IMG/VR virus record: IMGVR_UViG_3300021168_000002
Span: 37,725-101,724 of that record
Reading direction: 5' to 3' (one strand)
Source: a virus
DNA length: 64,000 nucleotides
Shown here piece by piece: positions 4,191 to 29,371 of this stretch. The translations under genes and the position numbers were made by a program. Position 1 is the first letter of the stretch. Each line of letters begins with the position of its first letter. The notes beneath the pieces are model-generated. The model searched no databases. It saw nothing but the letters and a program-made list of their open reading frames with translations, and was not told the origin of the DNA.

Positions 4191-4604
4191 ATGATAAATT
4201 TCTCTGAGTCGACCTCAGCGGATGTGAAACAGATCACCGAGTGGACCTCTCGTGATCTTTATCACTCTGAAGAATATCCGGAATGGTGGTTGACTGGAAA
4301 TGGACTACTCGCCTTCTGCCTGATGGATGAGCGCGGCCCCCTGGCCTACGTTCGTTTGAACGCGGAAGGTGAATATGTTCGCATCCACACGCAGTTTGCT
4401 CCCGAGTCAGTCGTTTCGAAACGCAGATTGGTGGTCGGGATGATCGCGTGTGTGAAGAAGCTGATCGAGATTTACAAAGCAGATGAGAAGAAAGGTTTGA
4501 TCTTCGGTTCCATCAGTCCCACTTTGGTGGCCTTCATGGACAAGCATCTGGGGTTTAAGCCGGTAGGCATCAGCGACCGTCGGTTGGATTTTGAGAGGGA
4601 ATAA
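4191..4604 (+). CDS. GNAT-like acetyltransferase-fold protein in the virion gene block
   Basis: A 137-residue protein with a strong ribosome site (AAGGAATTAGG) before ATG. The order of elements, LLAFCLMDERGPLAYVRL, then an RRLVVGMIACVKKL helix and the ending FMDKHLGFKPV, matches a compact GNAT fold: beta4-beta5, the acetyl-CoA helix, then the last strand. GNAT-like proteins are common between tail and internal-virion genes of T7-like phages, where they are thought to be virion components. The R/Q-x-x-G-x-G/A acetyl-CoA loop is not canonical, so enzymatic activity is doubtful. Confidence 0.55.
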   Translation: MINFSESTSADVKQITEWTSRDLYHSEEYPEWWLTGNGLLAFCLMDERGPLAYVRLNAEGEYVRIHTQFAPESVVSKRRLVVGMIACVKKLIEIYKADEKKGLIFGSISPTLVAFMDKHLGFKPVGISDRRLDFERE

Positions 4605-4606
4605 AT

Positions 4607-5338
4607 ATGGGTGGGATAATTGCACCGATAATTGGCGCGGCGACCGGTAACTGCGGGCCAAGTAAAGCAGAAAAAGATCAGGCAGCGGCAAGCGCCAGTT
4701 TTTCGAAGACACTGCAGTCGAATTATGCCACTCGATTTGGTCAACAGTCAGATGTATTGAGTGCGATTAACCGTGCTATGTCGCCTATCTTGGCGGCTGG
4801 TCCAAGTCAGCGGGGCTTCTCTGCGGAAGAGAGAGCCGCTCTCAACACTGCGGCTATTAACAACGCGGGCGCGGCAAGCCGCAACGCTCAGCAAGCGGCG
4901 GCTAACTTTGGCGCAGGCCAAGGTGGCGGCGGAACCGGAATTATAAGCGGCGTGCAGAGACAGATCGAAGGCTCGATTGCATCTTCGGCGGCTAATCAAC
5001 TTGCGGGTGCGGAGAATCAGATTACCCAAGCGGATTACGCGCAAGGCAATCAGAACTATTGGAAGGCGCAGGGCGGCATGGAACAGTTGTCGCAAGGCTA
5101 CAGCCCGAACGCGGCGATGAGCGGTTCAATTGAGCAAGGTAAAGAAGCCTTCGGTCAAGCGAAAGATGTTTACGCGCAACAGCAGCAAGAAGATCAAGCA
5201 ATTGCTGGCGGCATCACCAGTTTGGCATCGATGGCAGCGGGCGGCATCGGCGGCGGTATATCAGGGGTAGCAAATTCGGCTGCAGGAGCAAGTCAGCCAG
5301 CGGCCTTTGCACAAGGCTTTTTTAATGGCTTAGGGTAA
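4607..5338 (+). CDS. Internal virion protein, gp14-like candidate
   Basis: A 243-residue protein, very rich in Ala, Gly and Gln. It begins with a hydrophobic Gly/Ala segment (GGIIAPIIGAATG), continues with helical Gln/Ala-rich sequence and ends with another Gly-zipper-like stretch (ASMAAGGIGGGISGVA). Small Ala/Gln-rich proteins with hydrophobic ends placed just before two large internal proteins match the layout of T7 gp14-gp15-gp16, which form the DNA-ejection conduit. ATG follows GAGGGAATAAAT. Assignment rests on composition and synteny, not on a specific motif. Confidence 0.5.
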   Translation: MGGIIAPIIGAATGNCGPSKAEKDQAAASASFSKTLQSNYATRFGQQSDVLSAINRAMSPILAAGPSQRGFSAEERAALNTAAINNAGAASRNAQQAAANFGAGQGGGGTGIISGVQRQIEGSIASSAANQLAGAENQITQADYAQGNQNYWKAQGGMEQLSQGYSPNAAMSGSIEQGKEAFGQAKDVYAQQQQEDQAIAGGITSLASMAAGGIGGGISGVANSAAGASQPAAFAQGFFNGLG

Positions 5339-5353
5339 GTAGAGGATAATAAG

Positions 5354-7600
5354 ATGACTGAATTTGACGATCAGAAGCAAGCACCCGACAGCAGCCAATC
5401 TGCGGGACAGGTCGCGTCAAGCGCCGCTCCAGTTCTTGCGGCTTTGGGACCGGTAGCCCAAGGTACGACTCCCGGAACCCCGGCCCCAACGGGTATAGGC
5501 GGAATTTTAGCCGGAACTGGATTGGACGGCATCGTCGCGGGCTATCTAAAACACATTACTGACGTACAAAAGAACTCGCCGTTGGCTGTGAAGACAGCAG
5601 CAGTCGAGAGTCAGAAGAAGGCCCAGGCTGCAGCACCTGCAGTCGACCGTCCGGTTCCCGAAGCTGCGCCGTCGACAGGAAGTTTCGGAGATAAATTATC
5701 CGGCGCATTAGGCGACGCGTCTCACGCCTCTGACACGAAGGGCGGCTGGCTGACCGGTGTAACGAACACGCTGAACGCGCGCAACAAGCGCCTCGCTGAG
5801 GCCAAGAAAGAAGACGCACTTTTGGCGAAAACCCAGGCGGAAACGGTTGCTCTGCACCGCAACATTTATCAGCAAGATCAAGGTATTCGCCAAGCCGCGT
5901 ACAAGGGCAATCAGGAATTTTCTGACGCCTATAAAGAAAATCACGACATCGAAAGTGGTATCAATCACGCCGAGATGGCGAGACGCTTTCAAACTGACAA
6001 GGATTTTGCGACTAAGTACTTCGTTCGCGCCACAGGTGAAGAGCCGGTTCTTAATGCGCAAGGAGAGCCGAAGAAGGATAAGGACGGAGATGTAATCACC
6101 TCTCCGACTTACGACATCATCACCCGCGCAACCAAGAGCGGAGAAAAAGACGACAAGATTGTACCTGCTCAAATGAGCACGGACTTTCAAAAGTACGGTG
6201 TTGCGCAGTATCCTCCAAACACGAAACTAACCAGCAACCAATTTGCTGCGTCGAATGGCGCGTTGAATCTGGCCCGCAATGCGGTTGGCATTTTGAACAA
6301 TTCACGAGAGAAGCCGGTCAGCGATGAAGAGTTGAAGACACTAAGCCCTTACTTGACCGACCCGACTATTCAAGCTGCGATCTCTCACATTCCGGGTTCT
6401 GCGTACGCGGGACTTCTGCAGTATCAACAGAATGCGGACTTGCATATCCAAGACTTGCAGGCACAAGCTGATATAGCGAAGACCCAAAAGAATCAGCAGG
6501 GACTCGACGCGGCTAACTCACAGATCGCGGACCTGACTGCAGAGAAGCAGAAGGTCGCGACATTCACGTCTCAAGCAATCACCGAGAAGCAGGTCGAGGC
6601 ATACAAGAAGGATTCAGAAGAGGGCATCAAGTGGGTCGATAAGATTCTCCACGACCCGACGTCGCTATCCGGCGACAAGGCTTCCGGTGTTATACCTCAA
6701 CTTCAAGAGGCATTGAAGACCGAGACTGACCCGGGAAACAAGGCAAAGTTGACCTCAGCTATCGACGCCGCAAAGTTGGCTCGCGATAACTACTTCGACG
6801 ACATGCAGCGTAAGGCAACGGCTGACCAAGTTGCAAAGCAAGGTGACCCGGTAACTGCAGGTCGCATGCTTGCAAGAGGTGACTTAACTCTGGCCGACCT
6901 TCGCACGCGTCAAACAACAACGGACTTCATCGAGAAGGCGACAACCGAGGCTCAGAAGATTGACAAGAATTACAACCCGGCTGACGAAGTGAACTTCGAG
7001 CACATCGCGAAGTCACCAACAACAGCCACATTCTTCGGCTCTGCTCGTTCGCTTATGTCTAAGGGCGGCACGATGGACCAGCTTACAGAGATGGCAAAGC
7101 AGATTCCAGATAACTCTTTCCCGACTTTGAACACGGCAGAAGATTGGCTGAAGTTGAAGGAAGGTAAGGGTCCACTGTCAGGATACGCGGCCTTGGTACT
7201 TGGTGTGGCCGACGACTACGGTAAGGTTATGGGCGGCGGTACCGCATCTGATACTGCGCGCAATGCTGCACTTGCCTTGTTTGGTGCGGCTCAAACCGCA
7301 GAACAGCGCAGATACGCGATTGCATCGACGCTGGGTGCCGTAGGCTCTCAGTTTGATGGACGCGTTGGAAACAACAGATTCTTGGCGCGAGAGTATGGCG
7401 ATTTCGCTCGTTCGCCGCTTTCACCGCCAACAGAAAATCCAGTACAGCAGCAGATCACGGCAGGTAAGACTCCCGCAACAGCCGCCACAGCGGCTCCAAA
7501 GGGTGGAACACATCCGATGACATCGGAAGACGGTAAGACGAACATTTGGCTACTTAACAATCAGTGGGTAACAGCAGACGGGAAACCGTACAAGCCGTAA
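5354..7600 (+). CDS. Large internal virion (ejection) protein candidate, gp15-like
   Basis: A 748-residue protein, mostly predicted helical and rich in Lys, Gln, Asp and Ala. It has a Pro/Ala/Gly-rich first 100 residues and extended charged helices between about residues 120 and 450. No enzymatic motif was recognised. It sits between the small gp14-like gene and the giant 1972-residue gene, with only 7 bases to the latter, and shares their codon style. A role as the middle component of the ejection apparatus is inferred from order and size (T7 gp15 is about 750 residues). Confidence 0.5.
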   Translation: MTEFDDQKQAPDSSQSAGQVASSAAPVLAALGPVAQGTTPGTPAPTGIGGILAGTGLDGIVAGYLKHITDVQKNSPLAVKTAAVESQKKAQAAAPAVDRPVPEAAPSTGSFGDKLSGALGDASHASDTKGGWLTGVTNTLNARNKRLAEAKKEDALLAKTQAETVALHRNIYQQDQGIRQAAYKGNQEFSDAYKENHDIESGINHAEMARRFQTDKDFATKYFVRATGEEPVLNAQGEPKKDKDGDVITSPTYDIITRATKSGEKDDKIVPAQMSTDFQKYGVAQYPPNTKLTSNQFAASNGALNLARNAVGILNNSREKPVSDEELKTLSPYLTDPTIQAAISHIPGSAYAGLLQYQQNADLHIQDLQAQADIAKTQKNQQGLDAANSQIADLTAEKQKVATFTSQAITEKQVEAYKKDSEEGIKWVDKILHDPTSLSGDKASGVIPQLQEALKTETDPGNKAKLTSAIDAAKLARDNYFDDMQRKATADQVAKQGDPVTAGRMLARGDLTLADLRTRQTTTDFIEKATTEAQKIDKNYNPADEVNFEHIAKSPTTATFFGSARSLMSKGGTMDQLTEMAKQIPDNSFPTLNTAEDWLKLKEGKGPLSGYAALVLGVADDYGKVMGGGTASDTARNAALALFGAAQTAEQRRYAIASTLGAVGSQFDGRVGNNRFLAREYGDFARSPLSPPTENPVQQQITAGKTPATAATAAPKGGTHPMTSEDGKTNIWLLNNQWVTADGKPYKP

Positions 7601-7607
7601 GGATAAC

Positions 7608-10600
7608 ATGGCCGACCAGTCAACTGATCTATCAACAACAAATCAGCCAGCAGGAACCACGAGTATAGATAACGGTATTGCCTACGATGTCGCAGGCAAA
7701 CCGCTTGGACCTGCGAATGTGGGCGATGAACAAGCTGCGCCACCGCCGCCTCCGGGATTTAAGCCGGTAACGGTAAACGCACAGGTTGCGCCACCTCCTC
7801 CCCCAGGATTCCGGCCAGTCGTGGAAGCGCAAGTCGCGCCGCCACCGGGATTCAAGCCAGCCGAAACCAAAGTTCAACCGTCCGGTGTACTCAATCTCAC
7901 TCCTCCTGCGGGCAAGACGTCTATTAGTCCTCGCGAAGGCGGGTTTGAATCTTGGCTGCAGGACGTGCAGACCGATGTGAAGAACGGGAGTGCCTCCACT
8001 TGGGTCGGAGCTATGCTCAAGAAGATGGGTGCGACAGGTACCCATTCGGGAGTCTCGGAAAAAGCAGGAGAGTTTTTTGCAGGCCCAGCCGAGGGACTTC
8101 CCAAGGCTTTGGAGGGCAGCGTTGCCCTTCACAAGCAGGTATATGAAGGTCTCGTCAACAGCGGCATGGATTTGGATAAATCTGCAGCCGCCGCCAACAA
8201 GATTGTCGAGGGTCTATTTCAATCTGCGGGGCCTGTTGGTGCGGTAGCAGCACCGGGCGGGGAGGCACTTGCGGTTGTCCTGCCTGCGATGGTTGCGCAA
8301 ACAAACGCGCAGAAGGCTGCGGAGTATATGGGCGCGTCTCCGGACGTAGCTGAGTTGGTAGGCAACGTCACCGGAGTTGTCGCTGGCGGACTTGTTCACG
8401 AGAAACTTAATCCAGTACTAGACCGTTTCGGTGTCGCAGTAAATACGCACACCGCTGCGGAGCAAGAGTACACAAATCGCTCACGTAATTTGGAAACCGC
8501 GAGAGCGCAGGCAGCGGAAGTACAGCAGCGCGCCTTGGATGCAGCCCAGAAAGAAACTGCGGGACAAGGCACCCCGGCAGCTACCGACGCGGCGAGACAG
8601 TTAGCAAACGAGGCCGCAAAGAACGTAGCCGATGCGCAAAAGGCATTCGATCAAGCCGCTCAGCGTCGCGCCGCCGCGAAGATCGCGGTGGAGAAGTTAG
8701 GCCGTCAGATCACAAAGGCTGCGGATAAGAACAAGGCCGATGAGTACGAATCGAAGGCGTCGGAGCAGAAGAAGGCCAGCGATCTATTCCAGAAGGCCGT
8801 GCCGTCTCGCGGTGCAAACAGATACACTCCGGAAGACGAAGAAATCGCCCGCGCTCACATGGAGGCTGCGAAGGCAGGCGGCGCGAAGATCAACGATCTC
8901 CCGTCTGCGTACGAGGCCGTAGAAGGCGGGCGTCAGGGCATCGAAGACAAGATCAAGCCTTACGTTGAGAAGTATGCCGACGAACCAGTCACCACTAAGC
9001 CGGAAGACAGCCCGAAGATCAAGGTCGCCCAGAAGTTGGAAGAGATGGCGAAGCTGGATGGAAACTTCTCGAACGCGATGGACGCTTTGTCGGAGTTTAA
9101 TCTTACCGACCCGACCATGAGCGAGGCCCAAGACACGCTCACCAAGTTGAACAATTACAACCGCGCTTCCATGAAGGGCGCGAATAATTGGGATATCTAC
9201 AACATGATCGAGACGAACCCAGACTTTGCGGCTCGCTTCTTCATGGCAGACGAACTGCGCAACGCGATCTACAACAATCTGGAAGGTCACGGAGTGGAGG
9301 GAATTCGCGCAGCTAGAGGGGAGACTGCATCTCTTATCAATGTGCGCGATGCAATCGGCGCTCAAATTCGTGCGAACCGTGGCGGCACAACCGTTCGCGG
9401 TAGCGGCAATGCCAGCGCGATGCGCGGCCTACTTGGTCGATTGACCGGGAAGGCTATCAAGGGCATGGGTATCGCGGCTGGGGCGGAAGCGGGGGGAATC
9501 CCGGGCGCTATCGCGGGCGGCGCAATCGGAGAGGCCGTTGGACAGCCTATCGAAGACTTCATCGCACCTCGCGACATGACGCGCGACGAACACATCGAGA
9601 AGTCGATGAAGTTCAAGGGCACTAACCGCAAGCCAGTCGAGATCAAGGGAACTGGAACACCGCCAGTAATTCCAACCGAAGCAATTCCACCGGCTGTGAA
9701 GAATGGACCTAGCTCCGTTGAGTTGACACCTAGGGAGAACACCGACCTGCACGCAGAACTTGCGGCGCACTACGGTGAATCAAATCTAGAAGATTCCTCA
9801 TACAAGGAACTGGAACAGAACCTTCGCGATGATGTTGCGGCGAAGAACCGCAGCGGCGTAGAACTAGACCCTGCAGAGAAGACGCTGCTCACGAAGATTT
9901 TGAAGGCCGACACAGCCGACCGCGCTGCCGCCCAGGCTGCAGGCAAGCCAAACGCGGAAGTCAAGATCGAGCCTGTCAAGGAAAAGGAATTGCTCGCGGA
10001 GGCCGACAAGCGCGCCAACGAAGGCGAGCCGACTAAGTTGAATCCGACGCTCGTCTCACTAGGACGCGGCGACGAGTCTGCGCTGGTATCGCATTCACCT
10101 GCGATGAAGGCTCACGCGCCTGCTGCAGTTATCCCAGGTTTGCCGGAAGGCGTATCAATGGAAGATGCTCACCTACACGAGTGGGCACATATGGCAATTG
10201 GAGCCGTCGATGGCTTAGAGCCTGTCGAGATTCGCTCTGACATTCACCCGAAGAGTGAGAAGGGCGCAGGTGCTACATCCGTATTCAACGGCGCTAGTAT
10301 CCGCGATGCTGCAGGTAATATCGACCCGGAAGCTTTAGCCAATCAGGAAGTACAGTGGCTGACCCAGAAGATGGCAGGACCGGCATCCCACGAAGTTTTC
10401 AAGGGCATGACGAGAGACGAAGTTAAGGCATCCCCGGCAACAAGGGGAGACTTCCGTCAGTCACGCGCCATCATAAGAGAGCTTCACCCAGACTTCACCG
10501 CGTCTCAAGTGGAACAAGTGGTTGATCTCGCTTACGACCGCGCTCATGAATTTTTGACCAAGCCACACATCGCAGACCGCATCCGTGCGAATGCTGCGGT

Positions 10601-13526
10601 GAGAGAAGAAGGACTGTCACAGACGCTCCATGCAAGTCATGGGCGCGTATCTCAATTTGCAGAGGATATCAGAAATGCCCATAATGAATACACAGGAACT
10701 GAGCCTGGGCCAGATGGCGCAGGGGCTGGGGAAGGCGGCGAGAAAGCTGAGAAGGGAGAAGCCGCTGGGAAGAAGACCCCAGGAGAAGGTGAAGACAGAC
10801 GCGGCACAGGAACACCAAAGTCTGCTAGGGAAGCTGCAGCAGCCCGTGGGGTCGCTGAAAGCCAAGTAGGTAAGATTCCTGTCCCGAAGGAAACCACCAC
10901 CGGCAAGCCGGAAATCGATGAGGCTATCCGCGCAGGTGGGGGCATCCCGGGCGGCGTGCAGAAGGGCTTCGAGTACGTGGACAAGGCGACCGGCGAGACC
11001 CGCCAGTATCCCGACACCGCGTACGTCCACGAGCCGACCACCGGCACATCGTTGAACTTCCCCGTAGAGTCGATCACACCGGAGTTGGTGAAGGAACGAC
11101 TCGCTGCGAAGCGCGCCGAATATGCTGCGGCTGAGAAGGGCAAGCCGGAAGAGAGCGCGGTTACAGCGGTAGAGAAACTAGAGAAGCACCCGAATGAAGA
11201 TTTTCATCCGGTTAAATATTCGTACAATTCTGACTTCTCTAACAAGACTGCGCCGGGAATGGTTCTTCCTGACGGACGAATCATCAATGCGAAGAACGCT
11301 CACTCGGATATAGCCGAGGCTGCGGGATATCGTACGCCTACGGGAGAAACAATTGAGGGCGCTGTAAACAAATTTGAGAAGAACACAGGCGCTGCTCGTA
11401 TTGTCTATCCAGAAGGCGGCGACGGAAATATCGGTATTGAAATGCATACCGCTCCCACAGAAGATCAGAGAGCCATTATCGCCCACAATTTGAGAACAGC
11501 CGCGAAGAGTGGAGTAGGCGACGGCACGCTGACATGGGATTTGATGGGCAAGGGTGGAGAGAAAGGAAGAGGACTTTCAGGATACGGTTCTATCGGTGAT
11601 TTTCTACGGGCCGTGGATGATTGGAATAAGGTTCCTGAAAAAGTCACGCCTACGGGCATTGCGGAATCGAAGATTGAAAAGACACCGGAAGTCGCGAAGG
11701 GCGCAGATGAGTATAACAAAGAACGCGGCCTTCCTGCGATAGACGCTATACCGAAGCCGCATAATGTTGAGTTTGCGAAGCGTGTGGCGGATGCCTTTGA
11801 TGCTATGAAGCACGAGCCGAACAATCCGGAAGTTCAAAAAGCATACCAGTCGATGGCAGACGAGGTGCGCAAGCAGTGGGATTACGCGACTCAGAAGATG
11901 GGTATGAAGTTTGAACCGTGGACGAAGGAAGGACAGCCGTATGCTAACTCTGCGGAGATGGCAGATGACGTCCGTAACAACAATCACCTTTACTTCTTCC
12001 AAGGTGGTGATATTAAGCCAGAGAGTCCAATGGCGAAGGTAGACCCGGAGACAGGTCTAACTTCAAACGATATGTTCCGCGCTGTTCATGATCTATTCGG
12101 GCATGCCGCGCATGGATTTGAGTTTGGGCCTAAGGGCGAAGAGAATGCATACTTAGTTCACCGTCAGATGTTTCCACCGGAAGCTATTCCCGCATTGACA
12201 TCGGAAACTCGTGGACAGAATTCTTGGGTGAACTTCGGAAAACATCTGCGCGATGAAGTTGGAAATATTCCTAAGAAGGGCGAGTCTGGATACGTTCCTC
12301 CCGCAGAGCGTCCATATGCAGAGAATAAGGTTGGCCTTCTTCCATCTGATCTACAAGAGAGTCAAGTCGCAAAGTCTCCGAAAGGTTCTTCGGTTCCGCT
12401 GATGAAGAATCCGTTGGAAGTGGAAGGCACCGGAGAGAAGGGACGCATCTCGAATATCGACGTGGCCCAAGCTTTGAATGAATACAGCAAGGAAAAGAAT
12501 CCCGTGTTGGAACCTGGGACGGAAGGCGGGAAGATGACAGCCCGCGCCCAAAGGTTAGCCGAGGACGAGGCAAAGTATCAGCTAGCGCAAGGCAAGACCG
12601 GCACCGAGTGGTACACCACAGAGATGAAGGACCACGACAATTCTTTGCAAGGCATGAGACCGGAGTTGGTGGGCGGGGAAACGCTCGACTCAGTTCCAGG
12701 CCATCCTGTAAAGTTGTCGCTCTTCAAGGCTGCGGAAGCTGTGCTATCATCTGGACAGAAGCCTTACGGCAACTTCAAGGCCGCTGTGAAGGCTTGGGAT
12801 GCGTATAACGAGACTGGTCAGTTCCCTCCTATGAACCCGGCGACCGGAAAGTCGTGGGGGCCTCGCGGAGTGGCTGCGTACGGCAACGCGCTGGAGATGA
12901 TTAACAAGCTGGTCGCTGGGAAGGGCGAGAAGGGCGCAGCCGATTGGCTGATGGCCGATCACCCGGTTTCGGAGTTGAAGGAATACAACAGCGGCGTGAA
13001 GGGCAAGAAGACCGACATGCGTCCGGGCGCTATGATTTTGGGCGAGAAGCGCGGGCCTTTCATGCAGAATCTCCACGGGGTTGAGTCTGCGTTCACCGCC
13101 GATATGTGGGTGTCGCGCACTTGGAACCGTTGGATGGGGACGATGGAGTTCGGTAAGAATTCGTTTGGTGACGATGCGATTCTCTCTGACTCGCCGCGCA
13201 ATGGCGCGGAGCGCGGATTGATGAAGGAGTCGTTCGAGAAGACCGCGAATAAGCTGGGTCTCACCACCTCTAGTCTGCAGGCTGTGCTTTGGTATTATGA
13301 GCAGGCTTTGTATCGTGCTCACGGCATCCCGAAGGAGTCTTGGTCATTCAAGGACGCCGCCGCGCGTGCTGCCAAGGAAGAGGGCGAGACGCCGGAAGCG
13401 GAGCAGACCGGATTCAACTACGGGGCCAACCAGGGCAAGACAGCGGGCGGTATAGAGAATCTAGGCGCGCCGAAGAAGGCCGGACAGGTCGGTGCCGCAC
13501 AGTTTCTGAATGCCTTCAAAAAGTAA
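7608..13526 (+). CDS. Giant multidomain internal virion / polyvalent protein with M41-like protease motif
   Basis: A 1972-residue protein. Residues 44-84 carry three Pro-rich repeats of the type APPPPPGFKPV. Residues about 605-645 are a Gly/Ala-rich amphipathic segment that could insert in membranes. Residues 857-861 read HEWAH (HExxH). A Gly-Pro-Ala segment (QKMAGPASHEVF) and a downstream acidic residue (D948 in RGDFRQSRAI) follow in the order of FtsH-type peptidase M41. Near 1487 a block (FRAVHDLFGHAAHGFEFG) and, from about 1690, a long C-terminal domain resemble modules found in phage polyvalent proteins. It probably enters the cell with the DNA, as T7 gp16 does. The protease call is by motif order only. 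Confidence 0.6.
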   Translation: MADQSTDLSTTNQPAGTTSIDNGIAYDVAGKPLGPANVGDEQAAPPPPPGFKPVTVNAQVAPPPPPGFRPVVEAQVAPPPGFKPAETKVQPSGVLNLTPPAGKTSISPREGGFESWLQDVQTDVKNGSASTWVGAMLKKMGATGTHSGVSEKAGEFFAGPAEGLPKALEGSVALHKQVYEGLVNSGMDLDKSAAAANKIVEGLFQSAGPVGAVAAPGGEALAVVLPAMVAQTNAQKAAEYMGASPDVAELVGNVTGVVAGGLVHEKLNPVLDRFGVAVNTHTAAEQEYTNRSRNLETARAQAAEVQQRALDAAQKETAGQGTPAATDAARQLANEAAKNVADAQKAFDQAAQRRAAAKIAVEKLGRQITKAADKNKADEYESKASEQKKASDLFQKAVPSRGANRYTPEDEEIARAHMEAAKAGGAKINDLPSAYEAVEGGRQGIEDKIKPYVEKYADEPVTTKPEDSPKIKVAQKLEEMAKLDGNFSNAMDALSEFNLTDPTMSEAQDTLTKLNNYNRASMKGANNWDIYNMIETNPDFAARFFMADELRNAIYNNLEGHGVEGIRAARGETASLINVRDAIGAQIRANRGGTTVRGSGNASAMRGLLGRLTGKAIKGMGIAAGAEAGGIPGAIAGGAIGEAVGQPIEDFIAPRDMTRDEHIEKSMKFKGTNRKPVEIKGTGTPPVIPTEAIPPAVKNGPSSVELTPRENTDLHAELAAHYGESNLEDSSYKELEQNLRDDVAAKNRSGVELDPAEKTLLTKILKADTADRAAAQAAGKPNAEVKIEPVKEKELLAEADKRANEGEPTKLNPTLVSLGRGDESALVSHSPAMKAHAPAAVIPGLPEGVSMEDAHLHEWAHMAIGAVDGLEPVEIRSDIHPKSEKGAGATSVFNGASIRDAAGNIDPEALANQEVQWLTQKMAGPASHEVFKGMTRDEVKASPATRGDFRQSRAIIRELHPDFTASQVEQVVDLAYDRAHEFLTKPHIADRIRANAAVREEGLSQTLHASHGRVSQFAEDIRNAHNEYTGTEPGPDGAGAGEGGEKAEKGEAAGKKTPGEGEDRRGTGTPKSAREAAAARGVAESQVGKIPVPKETTTGKPEIDEAIRAGGGIPGGVQKGFEYVDKATGETRQYPDTAYVHEPTTGTSLNFPVESITPELVKERLAAKRAEYAAAEKGKPEESAVTAVEKLEKHPNEDFHPVKYSYNSDFSNKTAPGMVLPDGRIINAKNAHSDIAEAAGYRTPTGETIEGAVNKFEKNTGAARIVYPEGGDGNIGIEMHTAPTEDQRAIIAHNLRTAAKSGVGDGTLTWDLMGKGGEKGRGLSGYGSIGDFLRAVDDWNKVPEKVTPTGIAESKIEKTPEVAKGADEYNKERGLPAIDAIPKPHNVEFAKRVADAFDAMKHEPNNPEVQKAYQSMADEVRKQWDYATQKMGMKFEPWTKEGQPYANSAEMADDVRNNNHLYFFQGGDIKPESPMAKVDPETGLTSNDMFRAVHDLFGHAAHGFEFGPKGEENAYLVHRQMFPPEAIPALTSETRGQNSWVNFGKHLRDEVGNIPKKGESGYVPPAERPYAENKVGLLPSDLQESQVAKSPKGSSVPLMKNPLEVEGTGEKGRISNIDVAQALNEYSKEKNPVLEPGTEGGKMTARAQRLAEDEAKYQLAQGKTGTEWYTTEMKDHDNSLQGMRPELVGGETLDSVPGHPVKLSLFKAAEAVLSSGQKPYGNFKAAVKAWDAYNETGQFPPMNPATGKSWGPRGVAAYGNALEMINKLVAGKGEKGAADWLMADHPVSELKEYNSGVKGKKTDMRPGAMILGEKRGPFMQNLHGVESAFTADMWVSRTWNRWMGTMEFGKNSFGDDAILSDSPRNGAERGLMKESFEKTANKLGLTTSSLQAVLWYYEQALYRAHGIPKESWSFKDAAARAAKEEGETPEAEQTGFNYGANQGKTAGGIENLGAPKKAGQVGAAQFLNAFKK

Positions 13527-26300: not shown

Positions 26301-27296
26301 TCACTTCAAATACAGCCAATGCCTGTTTTCTGCTCGCACCATCCACTCTACCGTATTTTTGAGATTGGTGTCAAGGCTTTTCGATGGCATCCATCCCATC
26401 GCGGCCAGCTTGCTGCCGTCCATACCGTATCGAACGTCGAAGCCGGGGCGAATCGTTTGAGGGTAAATCTCGCGATAAGCTAGTTCCCTTCCTAGGACTT
26501 TCGCGATCACTCTAGCGACATGCAAATTCGAATACTCTTGCATTCCTGTGATATTGTACTTCTCACGGTTCAGTCCACGCTCCAATAAAAACATGACGGC
26601 CTCGGACACGTCCTGGCAGTGTAGGTAATTTCTTGTGCCGGGATTGCCGGTCACCGGGTCAACGTGGATATCGAGGGTCCTTCCGTTGAGAAGTGCGCTG
26701 ACCACCCGTGGGATGAATTTCTCCGGATGCTGGCGCTCCCCATAAACGTTCATCGTGTGGCTGATGATTACGGGGACGCCGTACGTGTTAGACCACGCCA
26801 GTGCCAATTCCTCCCCACCGGCCTTTGTTGCGGAATACGGATTGGTCGAATTGTAGCGGTCCCACTCTCTGAATGCCTCTCCAACTTTGGCTGGCCCGAA
26901 GACCTCGTCGGTCGAGAAGTAGAAGAACTTTTTGAGTCCTGGGATGCGGCGGGCGTATTCGAGCATCTCGAAGGTTCCGAAGATATTCGCCTCCACAAAG
27001 TCGCGGGGACACGCAATCGAGCGGTCGACATGGGTCCCAGCTGCCATGTGAAGCAGGTAGTCGATGTGGCCGATCTCTGCCTCCAGGCACTTGCCCAGCG
27101 GTTTCGCGACATCTGCAACGTGAATCTTGACGCGCGGATTGTTAGGCCATGCACCGATCTCCATTAAACGCTGGAGACCATTCGATGCGTACGTTAACTT
27201 GTCGAGAAGGACGACGTCCCAATCAGTTGTTTTCAAAACATGATCGACAAAATGCGCGGCAATAAATCCTGCGCCACCTGTGATGAGAATTTTCAC
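26301..27296 (-). CDS. Sugar-nucleotide 4,6-dehydratase (RmlB-like SDR)
   Basis: 331 residues from GTG 27296, which overlaps the TGA of the upstream glycosyltransferase. ILITGGAGFIAAH is the NAD-binding Rossmann motif, STDEVFG carries the Thr-Asp-Glu catalytic set typical of dTDP-glucose 4,6-dehydratases, and YSATKAGGEEL gives the YxxxK pair. NVYGERQHPEKFIPRV is the usual sugar-nucleotide site. It makes a 4-keto-6-deoxy nucleotide sugar in the cytoplasm, presumably a donor precursor for the adjacent transferases. GDP- or UDP-sugar specificity cannot be excluded. Confidence 0.85.
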   Translation of the reverse strand: MKILITGGAGFIAAHFVDHVLKTTDWDVVLLDKLTYASNGLQRLMEIGAWPNNPRVKIHVADVAKPLGKCLEAEIGHIDYLLHMAAGTHVDRSIACPRDFVEANIFGTFEMLEYARRIPGLKKFFYFSTDEVFGPAKVGEAFREWDRYNSTNPYSATKAGGEELALAWSNTYGVPVIISHTMNVYGERQHPEKFIPRVVSALLNGRTLDIHVDPVTGNPGTRNYLHCQDVSEAVMFLLERGLNREKYNITGMQEYSNLHVARVIAKVLGRELAYREIYPQTIRPGFDVRYGMDGSKLAAMGWMPSKSLDTNLKNTVEWMVRAENRHWLYLK

Positions 27297-29371
27297 TTTC
27301 CCTCCGGGAATATGTCTGGATGATTTCTTCGAATCGCTGCGCACATCTGCTCATGAGTCTGGCCCGCTATGCTCCTCATCGAGCCGGGGCGCATCCGGTA
27401 TTTGAATAACGGTTCATGCAGGACAGCGCACTTCCAAGTTCGCTTCAAAATGTCTAAGGAAAGATTCCAATCACCGTAGGCCCAGATATCCAGATTCATG
27501 CTGTATCCACCGGCCTGCTCGAAAGCCTCTCGAAGGATGAGGCGGCAGTACGGCATCTGATTGGATACTTTCTGCTGCTCCAAAGTCTCGGCGGTCGGTA
27601 TTCGCAGGTCGGATAACCCGAAGTACTGCATATCCGTTGAGACTATGCCGACGCCTGCCTTCATAAGCGGCACGGTTTTCTCAAGATAGTGGGAGTCGAG
27701 TAAGTCGTCAGCGTCTAAGAATAGGAGCAAATCGCCTGTGGCGGCCTTGGCTCCGGTATTGCGGGCCACATTCAGTCCCTGGTTTTCTTGTCGTATCCAC
27801 ACGATTGAATCTACGAACTGCTGGGACACTGTGTGAACATTGTCCATCGAGCCGTCGTCGACCACGATCACTTCGAAGTTTCTGTAAGTCTGCGCCAAGG
27901 CCGATTCGATGGTCTCTTTCAAATACTCCTTCATGTTGTAGCAAGGAATCACTATGGATACTCGGGTCTCTACGCTGTTTCGGACCTTCAGTTCTTCAAA
28001 CAAAGACCTCGGGTGATATATTTTATTAGGCACCAAAGCGCCGTCGGTCCAGGCAGATGTTCTCAAGTGAATCAAGTAAGACCGGTCTGTGAAATTCCAT
28101 CGCTTGAGTCCGGGAGATACGAAGTGCAGCATCTCATCATATCGCATGGCATCGAGTACTATCGGGGCCTTGACATATTTGCTCAGCCCGAATTTCGGGA
28201 CGGCCTCTTTGAATAGCGCGGGGCCGAAGGATATCCAACTTTCCGGGTGCATCTTATCCATGCTCTCGATCTTGTTGGCAATGTACTTCAAAACTTCCGC
28301 GTCCTTCGGTGCCTTGAAGACGCAGCCGCTGAGATACTCTTGGACTTTGTCGGAAGATGGGATGACATCCGTATCGGGAGATCGACGAGCGCCCAATTTC
28401 TCTTCTGATACGAAGGCGTAAGGCTCCGGGAAGTCTAGTTTGCGCAGGCACACCGTATCCAAATCTACATACCAGCCGCCCTCTCTCAAGATCAGGAGGA
28501 CCCGAAAGTAGTCGCAGAAGTGCACGCTGTTGTCAAACTCCGCTAATCTAGACTTGGGTAGAATCTCGTTTGCATCTTTGACTACCGTTCCCTTCGGGAT
28601 GCCTTCCGTTGGCTGTGTTACATACAAGTGGAACTCATGGCCGTGCCGCATGTAAGAGCGGATGCACAGTTTCTGGATGTTCGTTAATTCTGGACCAGAC
28701 CAAAAGCCTCTGACGATCTTGTTGCTATCCTTCCAAGACTGGTCGGGCTTCTCTAAGTGCTGAATCTTGGGGACCAGCCCGGTCCAGCCTTCCGGATAAG
28801 CGTAGGCGGGAGATAAGACCTTTCCAGGCGGGTTGTCGTGCAGATAGCGATTCAAGTGCGATTCATCGAACCAGACTGCGGTAATTCCCTTCTCATTGTC
28901 TGCGTCGATGCTCTTGCTTATACTGGCGCACATGTGAAGAAATGCGCCGGTGCTTCCACCAACGAAGCAGCCTTGATAATATGTGGAGCCATTGCCGACG
29001 TAAGCGGCAGATTGCGGGCGACGCTCCCAAGCCTCCGGGAAACCCGGATGTAGGACTGCGGTGATTCCGCCAGCAAAAATTTCGTCGAGTGCTATCTTGC
29101 TGACGACCCGTAAGTCCACGTCCATGTAATAAACGTGGTCATACGCCAGCAGGAAGCCCCGCTGCTCGTAGATGGCGTGATAGCGCATCATGGTAGCGTC
29201 CGGCCATCCCAGGTCCAGATAATCAAACTTGATTGCGTCAAAAGAATCTTTGCTGTCGGTGAACAAGAGTATATCGCACGGTGGGAAGAAATCTCTCAGA
29301 GATGCGATCATCGGCGCGATGTGCCCTGCGTAACGTTCGCCTGTCGCGACTAGGATGACAGCGGTCTTCAT
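27293..29371 (-). CDS. Triple-domain glycosyltransferase GT6-GT32-GT2
   Basis: 692 residues. Residues 1-210: GT6 family (animal ABO/alpha-1,3-Gal transferases), with YMDVDL (DVD 84-86), LHPGFP, ERRPQSAAYV, QGCFVGGS and AVWFDESHLNRYL. Residues about 215-450: GT32-like (OCH1-type), with FWSGPEL, FCDYFRVLLILREGGWYVD and DLD 303-305. Residues 470-690: GT2, with VSIVIPCYN, VVDDGS and the LDADD metal site at 552-556. All three metal-binding acidic motifs are present. It probably adds several sugars to one glycan in the cytoplasm. It is coupled by ATGA to the GT11 gene and by GTGA to the dehydratase gene. Confidence 0.85.
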   Translation of the reverse strand: MKTAVILVATGERYAGHIAPMIASLRDFFPPCDILLFTDSKDSFDAIKFDYLDLGWPDATMMRYHAIYEQRGFLLAYDHVYYMDVDLRVVSKIALDEIFAGGITAVLHPGFPEAWERRPQSAAYVGNGSTYYQGCFVGGSTGAFLHMCASISKSIDADNEKGITAVWFDESHLNRYLHDNPPGKVLSPAYAYPEGWTGLVPKIQHLEKPDQSWKDSNKIVRGFWSGPELTNIQKLCIRSYMRHGHEFHLYVTQPTEGIPKGTVVKDANEILPKSRLAEFDNSVHFCDYFRVLLILREGGWYVDLDTVCLRKLDFPEPYAFVSEEKLGARRSPDTDVIPSSDKVQEYLSGCVFKAPKDAEVLKYIANKIESMDKMHPESWISFGPALFKEAVPKFGLSKYVKAPIVLDAMRYDEMLHFVSPGLKRWNFTDRSYLIHLRTSAWTDGALVPNKIYHPRSLFEELKVRNSVETRVSIVIPCYNMKEYLKETIESALAQTYRNFEVIVVDDGSMDNVHTVSQQFVDSIVWIRQENQGLNVARNTGAKAATGDLLLFLDADDLLDSHYLEKTVPLMKAGVGIVSTDMQYFGLSDLRIPTAETLEQQKVSNQMPYCRLILREAFEQAGGYSMNLDIWAYGDWNLSLDILKRTWKCAVLHEPLFKYRMRPGSMRSIAGQTHEQMCAAIRRNHPDIFPEGK

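Follow-up and report, generated by a model that had tools for sequence, protein, structure and literature searches.

Gene neighbourhood and overall layout of P0001

The stretch of DNA analysed here (64,000 nt, referred to as the window) carries at 7608..13526 (+) a single ATG-started ORF for a protein of 1972 aa, P0001. The frame is uninterrupted, as had been described in an earlier note on this DNA, and it is the last of a trio of genes arranged in order of increasing size. The other two encode proteins of 243 aa (4607..5338, +) and 748 aa (5354..7600, +), and they are preceded by the gene for a 137-aa protein (4191..4604, +). An upstream 1241-aa protein and the 137- and 243-aa proteins match gp19 (E 1e-8), gp22 (BLASTP E 2e-7) and gp23 (37% identity, E 1e-23) of Tunturi_3 (PP885686), a podovirus isolated on Tunturiibacter (Acidobacteriota). 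These three counterparts occur in the same order in both viruses, ahead of two long genes, so that P0001 is encoded within a region syntenic with a podovirus virion block. At the positions of the window's two long genes, for the 748- and 1972-aa proteins, Tunturi_3 has gp24 and gp25 (797 and 1070 aa), but BLASTP found no meaningful similarity between the 748-aa protein and gp24 or between P0001 and gp25, and the M41-like domain described below was not detected in gp25. A second comparison, with the podovirus ctQRb9, was dropped, since the 748- and 243-aa proteins were not similar by BLASTP to the products of its corresponding genes.

The sizes of the window trio (243, 748 and 1972 aa) resemble the size order of the T7 ejection proteins gp14, gp15 and gp16 (196, 747 and 1318 aa; PMC8954989). 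By its position and its match to gp23, the 243-aa protein is likely to be the small ejection protein, and gene order makes the 748-aa protein the likely middle one. P0001 would then probably be the largest of the ejection (internal virion) proteins of a short-tailed soil phage, a podovirus of Acidobacteriota type. The earlier note had called it a giant ejection protein, a description supported by gene order and podovirus synteny, and it would accordingly be packaged and injected. Like gp16 of T7 and P22, it closes a small-medium-large series after the tail genes, has hydrophobic segments and belongs to a group in which enzymatic cargo is swapped among relatives (PMC8954989); the likeness is one of gene order and sizes, sequence similarity between P0001 and the two gp16 proteins being undetected by Pfam or PHROGs. 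The cargo also differs, in that T7 gp16 carries a transglycosylase and P0001 a candidate peptidase.

Near the N-terminus, a repeat search recovered three Pro-rich repeats of the form (Q)(A/V)APPP..GF(K/R)P (7730..7861, +), in agreement with the earlier description of the protein. The place of these repeats is constant among relatives and their sequence varies, being APPPPPGFKP in the window and in the viral contig L002, ASGFxFGFKP in L003 and PDSGIQLDMSKSVP in L004. The hydropathy maxima of P0001 (19-residue windows) lie at residue 212 (1.65) and residue 622 (1.22), and mark a hydrophobic segment at residues 212-230 (8241..8297, +) and a Gly/Ala-rich one at residues 622-640 (9471..9527, +). 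A membrane-like segment had been proposed; the two stretches recur at similar positions in L002-L004, and their hydropathy is modest. The M41-like peptidase domain follows at residues 831-1031 (10098..10700, +), and beyond it lie modules that are common to, or swapped among, the window, L002, L003 and L004, making P0001 a polyvalent protein.

Predicted fold and active site of the M41-like domain

The translation confirms the sequence HEWAH at residues 857-861 (10176..10190, +) and an aspartate at residue 948 (10449..10451, +), which had been read in the earlier note as the site of an FtsH-type zinc peptidase. That reading found no backing in searches for the M41 family itself: PF01434 gave no match by hmmscan, nor did it when all six frames of the 101.7-kb source contig were searched with E values of up to 10 allowed. 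The peptidase region likewise had no matches in Pfam, PHROGs or NCBIfam, and a sequence search of the PDB with the domain returned chance matches only. HEWAH is the sole HExxH motif in P0001, and since such a motif arises by chance in about 6% of shuffled P0001 sequences, it is weak evidence by itself; the case depends on the conservation of the motif, which is what makes it more than chance, and on the fold.

Structure prediction, one of the checks that the earlier note had suggested, returned the fold of the FtsH peptidase domain. The AlphaFold2 model, built from an alignment of five sequences and of moderate confidence, has a mean pLDDT of 76 and a pTM of 0.78; the HExxH helix and the helix bundle are well predicted, but model residues 43-57 (protein residues 873-887), where pLDDT falls under 50, are not. 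When the model was compared with the PDB by Foldseek, the first 13 rows were all FtsH-family proteins (probability 1.00). With VIA-align, Z ranged from 14.1 (FtsH 2ce7_C) down to 10.6 over 21 entries of the FtsH family and dropped to 5.3 in the next row, an unrelated protein. Sequence identity between the domain and these structural matches is 12-18%. A Foldseek search of viral models gave weak matches only, and those named M41 or FtsH came from giant viruses.

Profile comparison agrees with the predicted structure. Five phage copies of the domain were compared by hhalign with 13 FtsH peptidase domains (E. coli FtsH and homologues from a plasmid collection), giving a probability of 92.6% and a score of 49.3, against a highest score of 20.5 in 100 column shuffles. 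Common ancestry with FtsH is thus detectable at the profile level. In the joint alignment of the 18 sequences, HExxH and the third-ligand Asp share columns between phage and FtsH proteins: H857, E858 and H861 fall on the FtsH HEAGH, and D948 on the Asp of STGASND (D492 in the E. coli record). The zinc ligands are therefore predicted to be H857, H861 and D948, with E858 as the general base. The helix MAGPASHE (residues 922-929; 10371..10394, +) is the counterpart of FtsH YGGRLAEE in the same alignment.

The phage domain thus resembles FtsH and the m-AAA and i-AAA proteases (MEROPS M41, PF01434) in its predicted fold, its HExxH helix, its Asp third ligand and a long helix bearing a G-x-A-x-x-E-like motif. 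It differs from them in residing within a 1972-aa phage protein, in having no PF01434 score and in lacking an AAA+ module, neither such a module nor a Walker A motif being found in P0001 by Pfam scan and motif search. The Glu that is invariant in the GGRxAE motif of FtsH is replaced by His928 in the window and by Asp in a second copy of the domain in L003, and the joint alignment shows that the PRG-ALG strand motif of FtsH is not kept. In view of these departures we use the name M41-like and leave the domain outside PF01434. In all, the model and the alignments support an FtsH-type (M41) peptidase fold and an equivalent site; catalysis is something that we infer.

Conservation of the domain

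Relatives of the domain were found in three viral contigs (L002, L003 and L004; 72-89% identity over the region), and no further ones beyond these. None was found among GenBank phages or, in two scans, in bacterial genomes, and a combined phage and FtsH profile run over all fetched loci gave no other clear copy. The contig L003 holds a second M41-like copy in the same polypeptide (8985-9551 of L003; HELGH at residue 1181) that is 30% identical to the first and retains both the HExxH and the Asp aligned with D948. Thus all five copies (the window, the three relatives and the second L003 copy) have H857, E858, H861 and D948 without exception.

Residues 851-1050 form the best-conserved stretch of P0001 across all three relatives, at 66-94% identity per 50-residue block. 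Elsewhere identity is mostly far lower, save in blocks that the window has in common with a single relative, for instance the C-terminal module shared with L002. In comparisons of the domain with its relatives, dN was 0.09-0.16 and dS 1.2-2.5, the latter near saturation, so that dN/dS is about 0.06-0.13. Judged by these ratios, the domain is under strong purifying selection, which, together with an intact site, is not expected of a dead remnant.

Downstream modules and junction peptides

The C-terminal polyvalent-protein modules mentioned in the earlier note were borne out by a match to phrog_3170 at residues 1390-1543 (E 2e-28). The module containing it, at residues 1360-1553 (11685..12266, +), was delimited from 97 viral loci, an alignment of 51 sequences and an AlphaFold2 model, and is referred to here by its HDxxGH motif. 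Among the 51 aligned sequences H1494, D1495 and H1499 are invariant, and E1533, which sits 34 residues after the second His, is nearly so. Besides the 97 viral loci, the module occurs in about 200 GenBank phages, mostly mycobacteriophages, where it is annotated 'hypothetical protein'. Its model is confident (pLDDT 89.3) and has no clear match among solved structures (best VIA Z 2.3). The order of its residues resembles the His-x4-His...Glu of the iron site in aromatic amino acid hydroxylases, but this identity was dropped, as the fold search did not bear it out (tryptophan hydroxylase, E 9.4, probability 0.02).

The C-terminal module, at residues 1600-1954 (12405..13469, +), is about 84% identical to that of L002 and had no matches in a PDB profile search. 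One part of it (GEKRGPFMQNLHG..FTADMWVSRTW) bears a by-eye likeness to the DTH region of HhH-GPD DNA glycosylases, and the likeness is closer in the DUF7178-bearing C-terminus of L004 (HKVRNFYNNI..VTIDTHA). The arrangement past the peptidase domain varies among the relatives: L002 is without the HDxxGH module, and L004 has an ADP-ribosyltransferase-like stretch (a weak Pfam match) and DUF7178.

Short peptides of the form ESx(V/I)xK lie at the module junctions downstream of the peptidase domain, and are encoded with differing Ser codons. They are ESQVGK (residues 1084-1089; 10857..10874, +), ESKIEK (1353-1358; 11664..11681, +) and ESQVAK (1584-1589; 12357..12374, +), with a weaker copy, ESAVTA, at 1182-1187 (11151..11168, +). 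The pattern ES[EQK][VI]xK has three sites past residue 1040, compared with 0.006 expected from shuffling, and is absent from the window's other long frames, which total 23,202 aa. As it was picked by eye after inspection, and did not come first in an unbiased scan for repeats, it is treated as a lead only, and the peptides are candidate self-cleavage sites.

Junction repeats are also seen in other proteins. L004 keeps the peptidase, and its junctions carry GGSNVDK and GGSQV. In 24 non-redundant HDxxGH proteins, flanking peptides match more within than between proteins (match scores of at least 28 in 4/24 within proteins, against 0.5% between; combined p 0.001). Several giant phage proteins (L024, L025, L057, L058, L073, L091 and L092) have short repeats specific to each protein and often placed at junctions; examples of junction repeats are SLLAKQPIRES, KHLQGQHDQ, NKNHDA, [FW]DESxHPR, RYSPGR and NAASLD. 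These observations suggest that a junction tag is general among giant phage proteins, yet protein-specific in sequence. Because such repeats are also present in giant phage proteins in which no M41 domain was detected, the junction peptides are not proof of cleavage by the domain of P0001, and may serve something else.

Proposed function and alternative explanations

We consider it somewhat probable that P0001 is a polyvalent ejection protein with an AAA+-free, FtsH-fold peptidase, the likeliest substrate of which would be the linkers between its own modules. Residues ~831-1031 would bind zinc through H857, H861 and D948, with E858 acting as the general base. In FtsH the ATPase is required for the unfolding of substrates, and without one the phage domain should cut only exposed, unstructured segments. 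The linkers between the C-terminal modules, bearing ESx(V/I)xK, would be the likeliest of these. A cut made at about the time of packaging, or once the protein has been ejected, would set the HDxxGH module and the C-terminal one free inside the host. The fuller proposal, of an injected polyprotein whose motor-free FtsH-type peptidase cuts the junction tags and so frees effectors that include the HDxxGH module, is put forward tentatively. Metallopeptidases of polyvalent proteins have been proposed either to self-process or to target the host (PMC5512222). Given an active peptidase, self-processing would be a credible outcome, short of an even chance, and a host target a somewhat less credible one.

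The domain could instead be an injected effector protease that acts on a host protein of the membrane or cytoplasm, such as a defence or envelope factor, and performs no self-cleavage. This is possible but doubtful. The domain comes after hydrophobic segments, the inner membrane is spanned by ejection proteins of this class (PMC8954989), host targeting is one of the options given for the metallopeptidases of polyvalent proteins (PMC5512222), and the two diverged copies in L003 would fit two substrates; however, no host target is indicated, and the junction peptides suggest a substrate in cis. A cytoplasmic, non-virion P0001, whose gene merely follows the tail genes, is unlikely: it would suit the finding that neither the 748-aa protein nor P0001 resembles its positional counterpart in Tunturi_3 (gp24 and gp25) by BLASTP, but the adjacent genes match the block of that podovirus isolate in order, and the trio follows T7 gp14, gp15 and gp16 in size order (PMC8954989).

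Two further explanations concern the site itself. The M41 fold may have been kept as a structural or peptide-binding remnant that is not a protease, as the loss of the FtsH-invariant Glu and of the PRG-ALG strand might indicate, and FtsHi proteins are among the VIA matches. FtsHi proteins are FtsH-fold relatives lacking the protease site. Dead copies usually lose HExxH, however, whereas here strong purifying selection acts and all four site residues persist in five copies, even in one with just 30% identity, and there is little probability that the domain is such a remnant. It is very improbable that the HExxH belongs to an already described zincin clade of polyvalent proteins, the M41 likeness being convergent. 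Polyvalent proteins carry zincins more often than any other kind of peptidase, and those of Iyer et al. (2017, PMC5512222) resemble the predicted P0001 metallopeptidase in lying within giant multi-module proteins encoded among virion genes. They are described, however, with a three-stranded sheet and with a Glu on the next helix as third ligand, whereas beyond HExxH the P0001 model consists mostly of helices, the conserved candidate ligand is an Asp (D948) 87 residues past the second His, and high-Z matches are limited to the FtsH family. The 12 zincin clades in that study are said not to be close to any earlier-defined clade, and neither M41 nor FtsH is named there (PMC5512222).

Metallopeptidases in polyvalent proteins are thus already known, and the motor-free FtsH-type variant is, as far as our searches show, apparently new: no description of such a peptidase in a polyvalent protein was found in the open-licence literature searched. 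One paper that mentions both an M41 peptidase and a phage genome was set aside, as it deals with a replication protein of the AAA+ type. In P0001 the M41 fold would have been put to use independently and with no motor, and the protease that the phage may bring in could trim either the injected protein itself or some target in the host. This touches on the question of how giant multi-enzyme phage proteins cross a narrow tail and then become separate activities in the host, and the presence of an AAA+-free FtsH-type peptidase beside recurring junction peptides offers a specific and testable hypothesis of self-processing.

Other genes in the window

Elsewhere in the window, a gene at 27293-29371 (-) encodes a 692-aa protein in which a glycosyltransferase family 6 domain (Pfam E 9e-24) is fused to a GT2 domain. 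It adjoins a gene for a GDP-mannose dehydratase-like epimerase at 26301-27344, and by their sequence assignments the two are phage-encoded sugar-modification genes.
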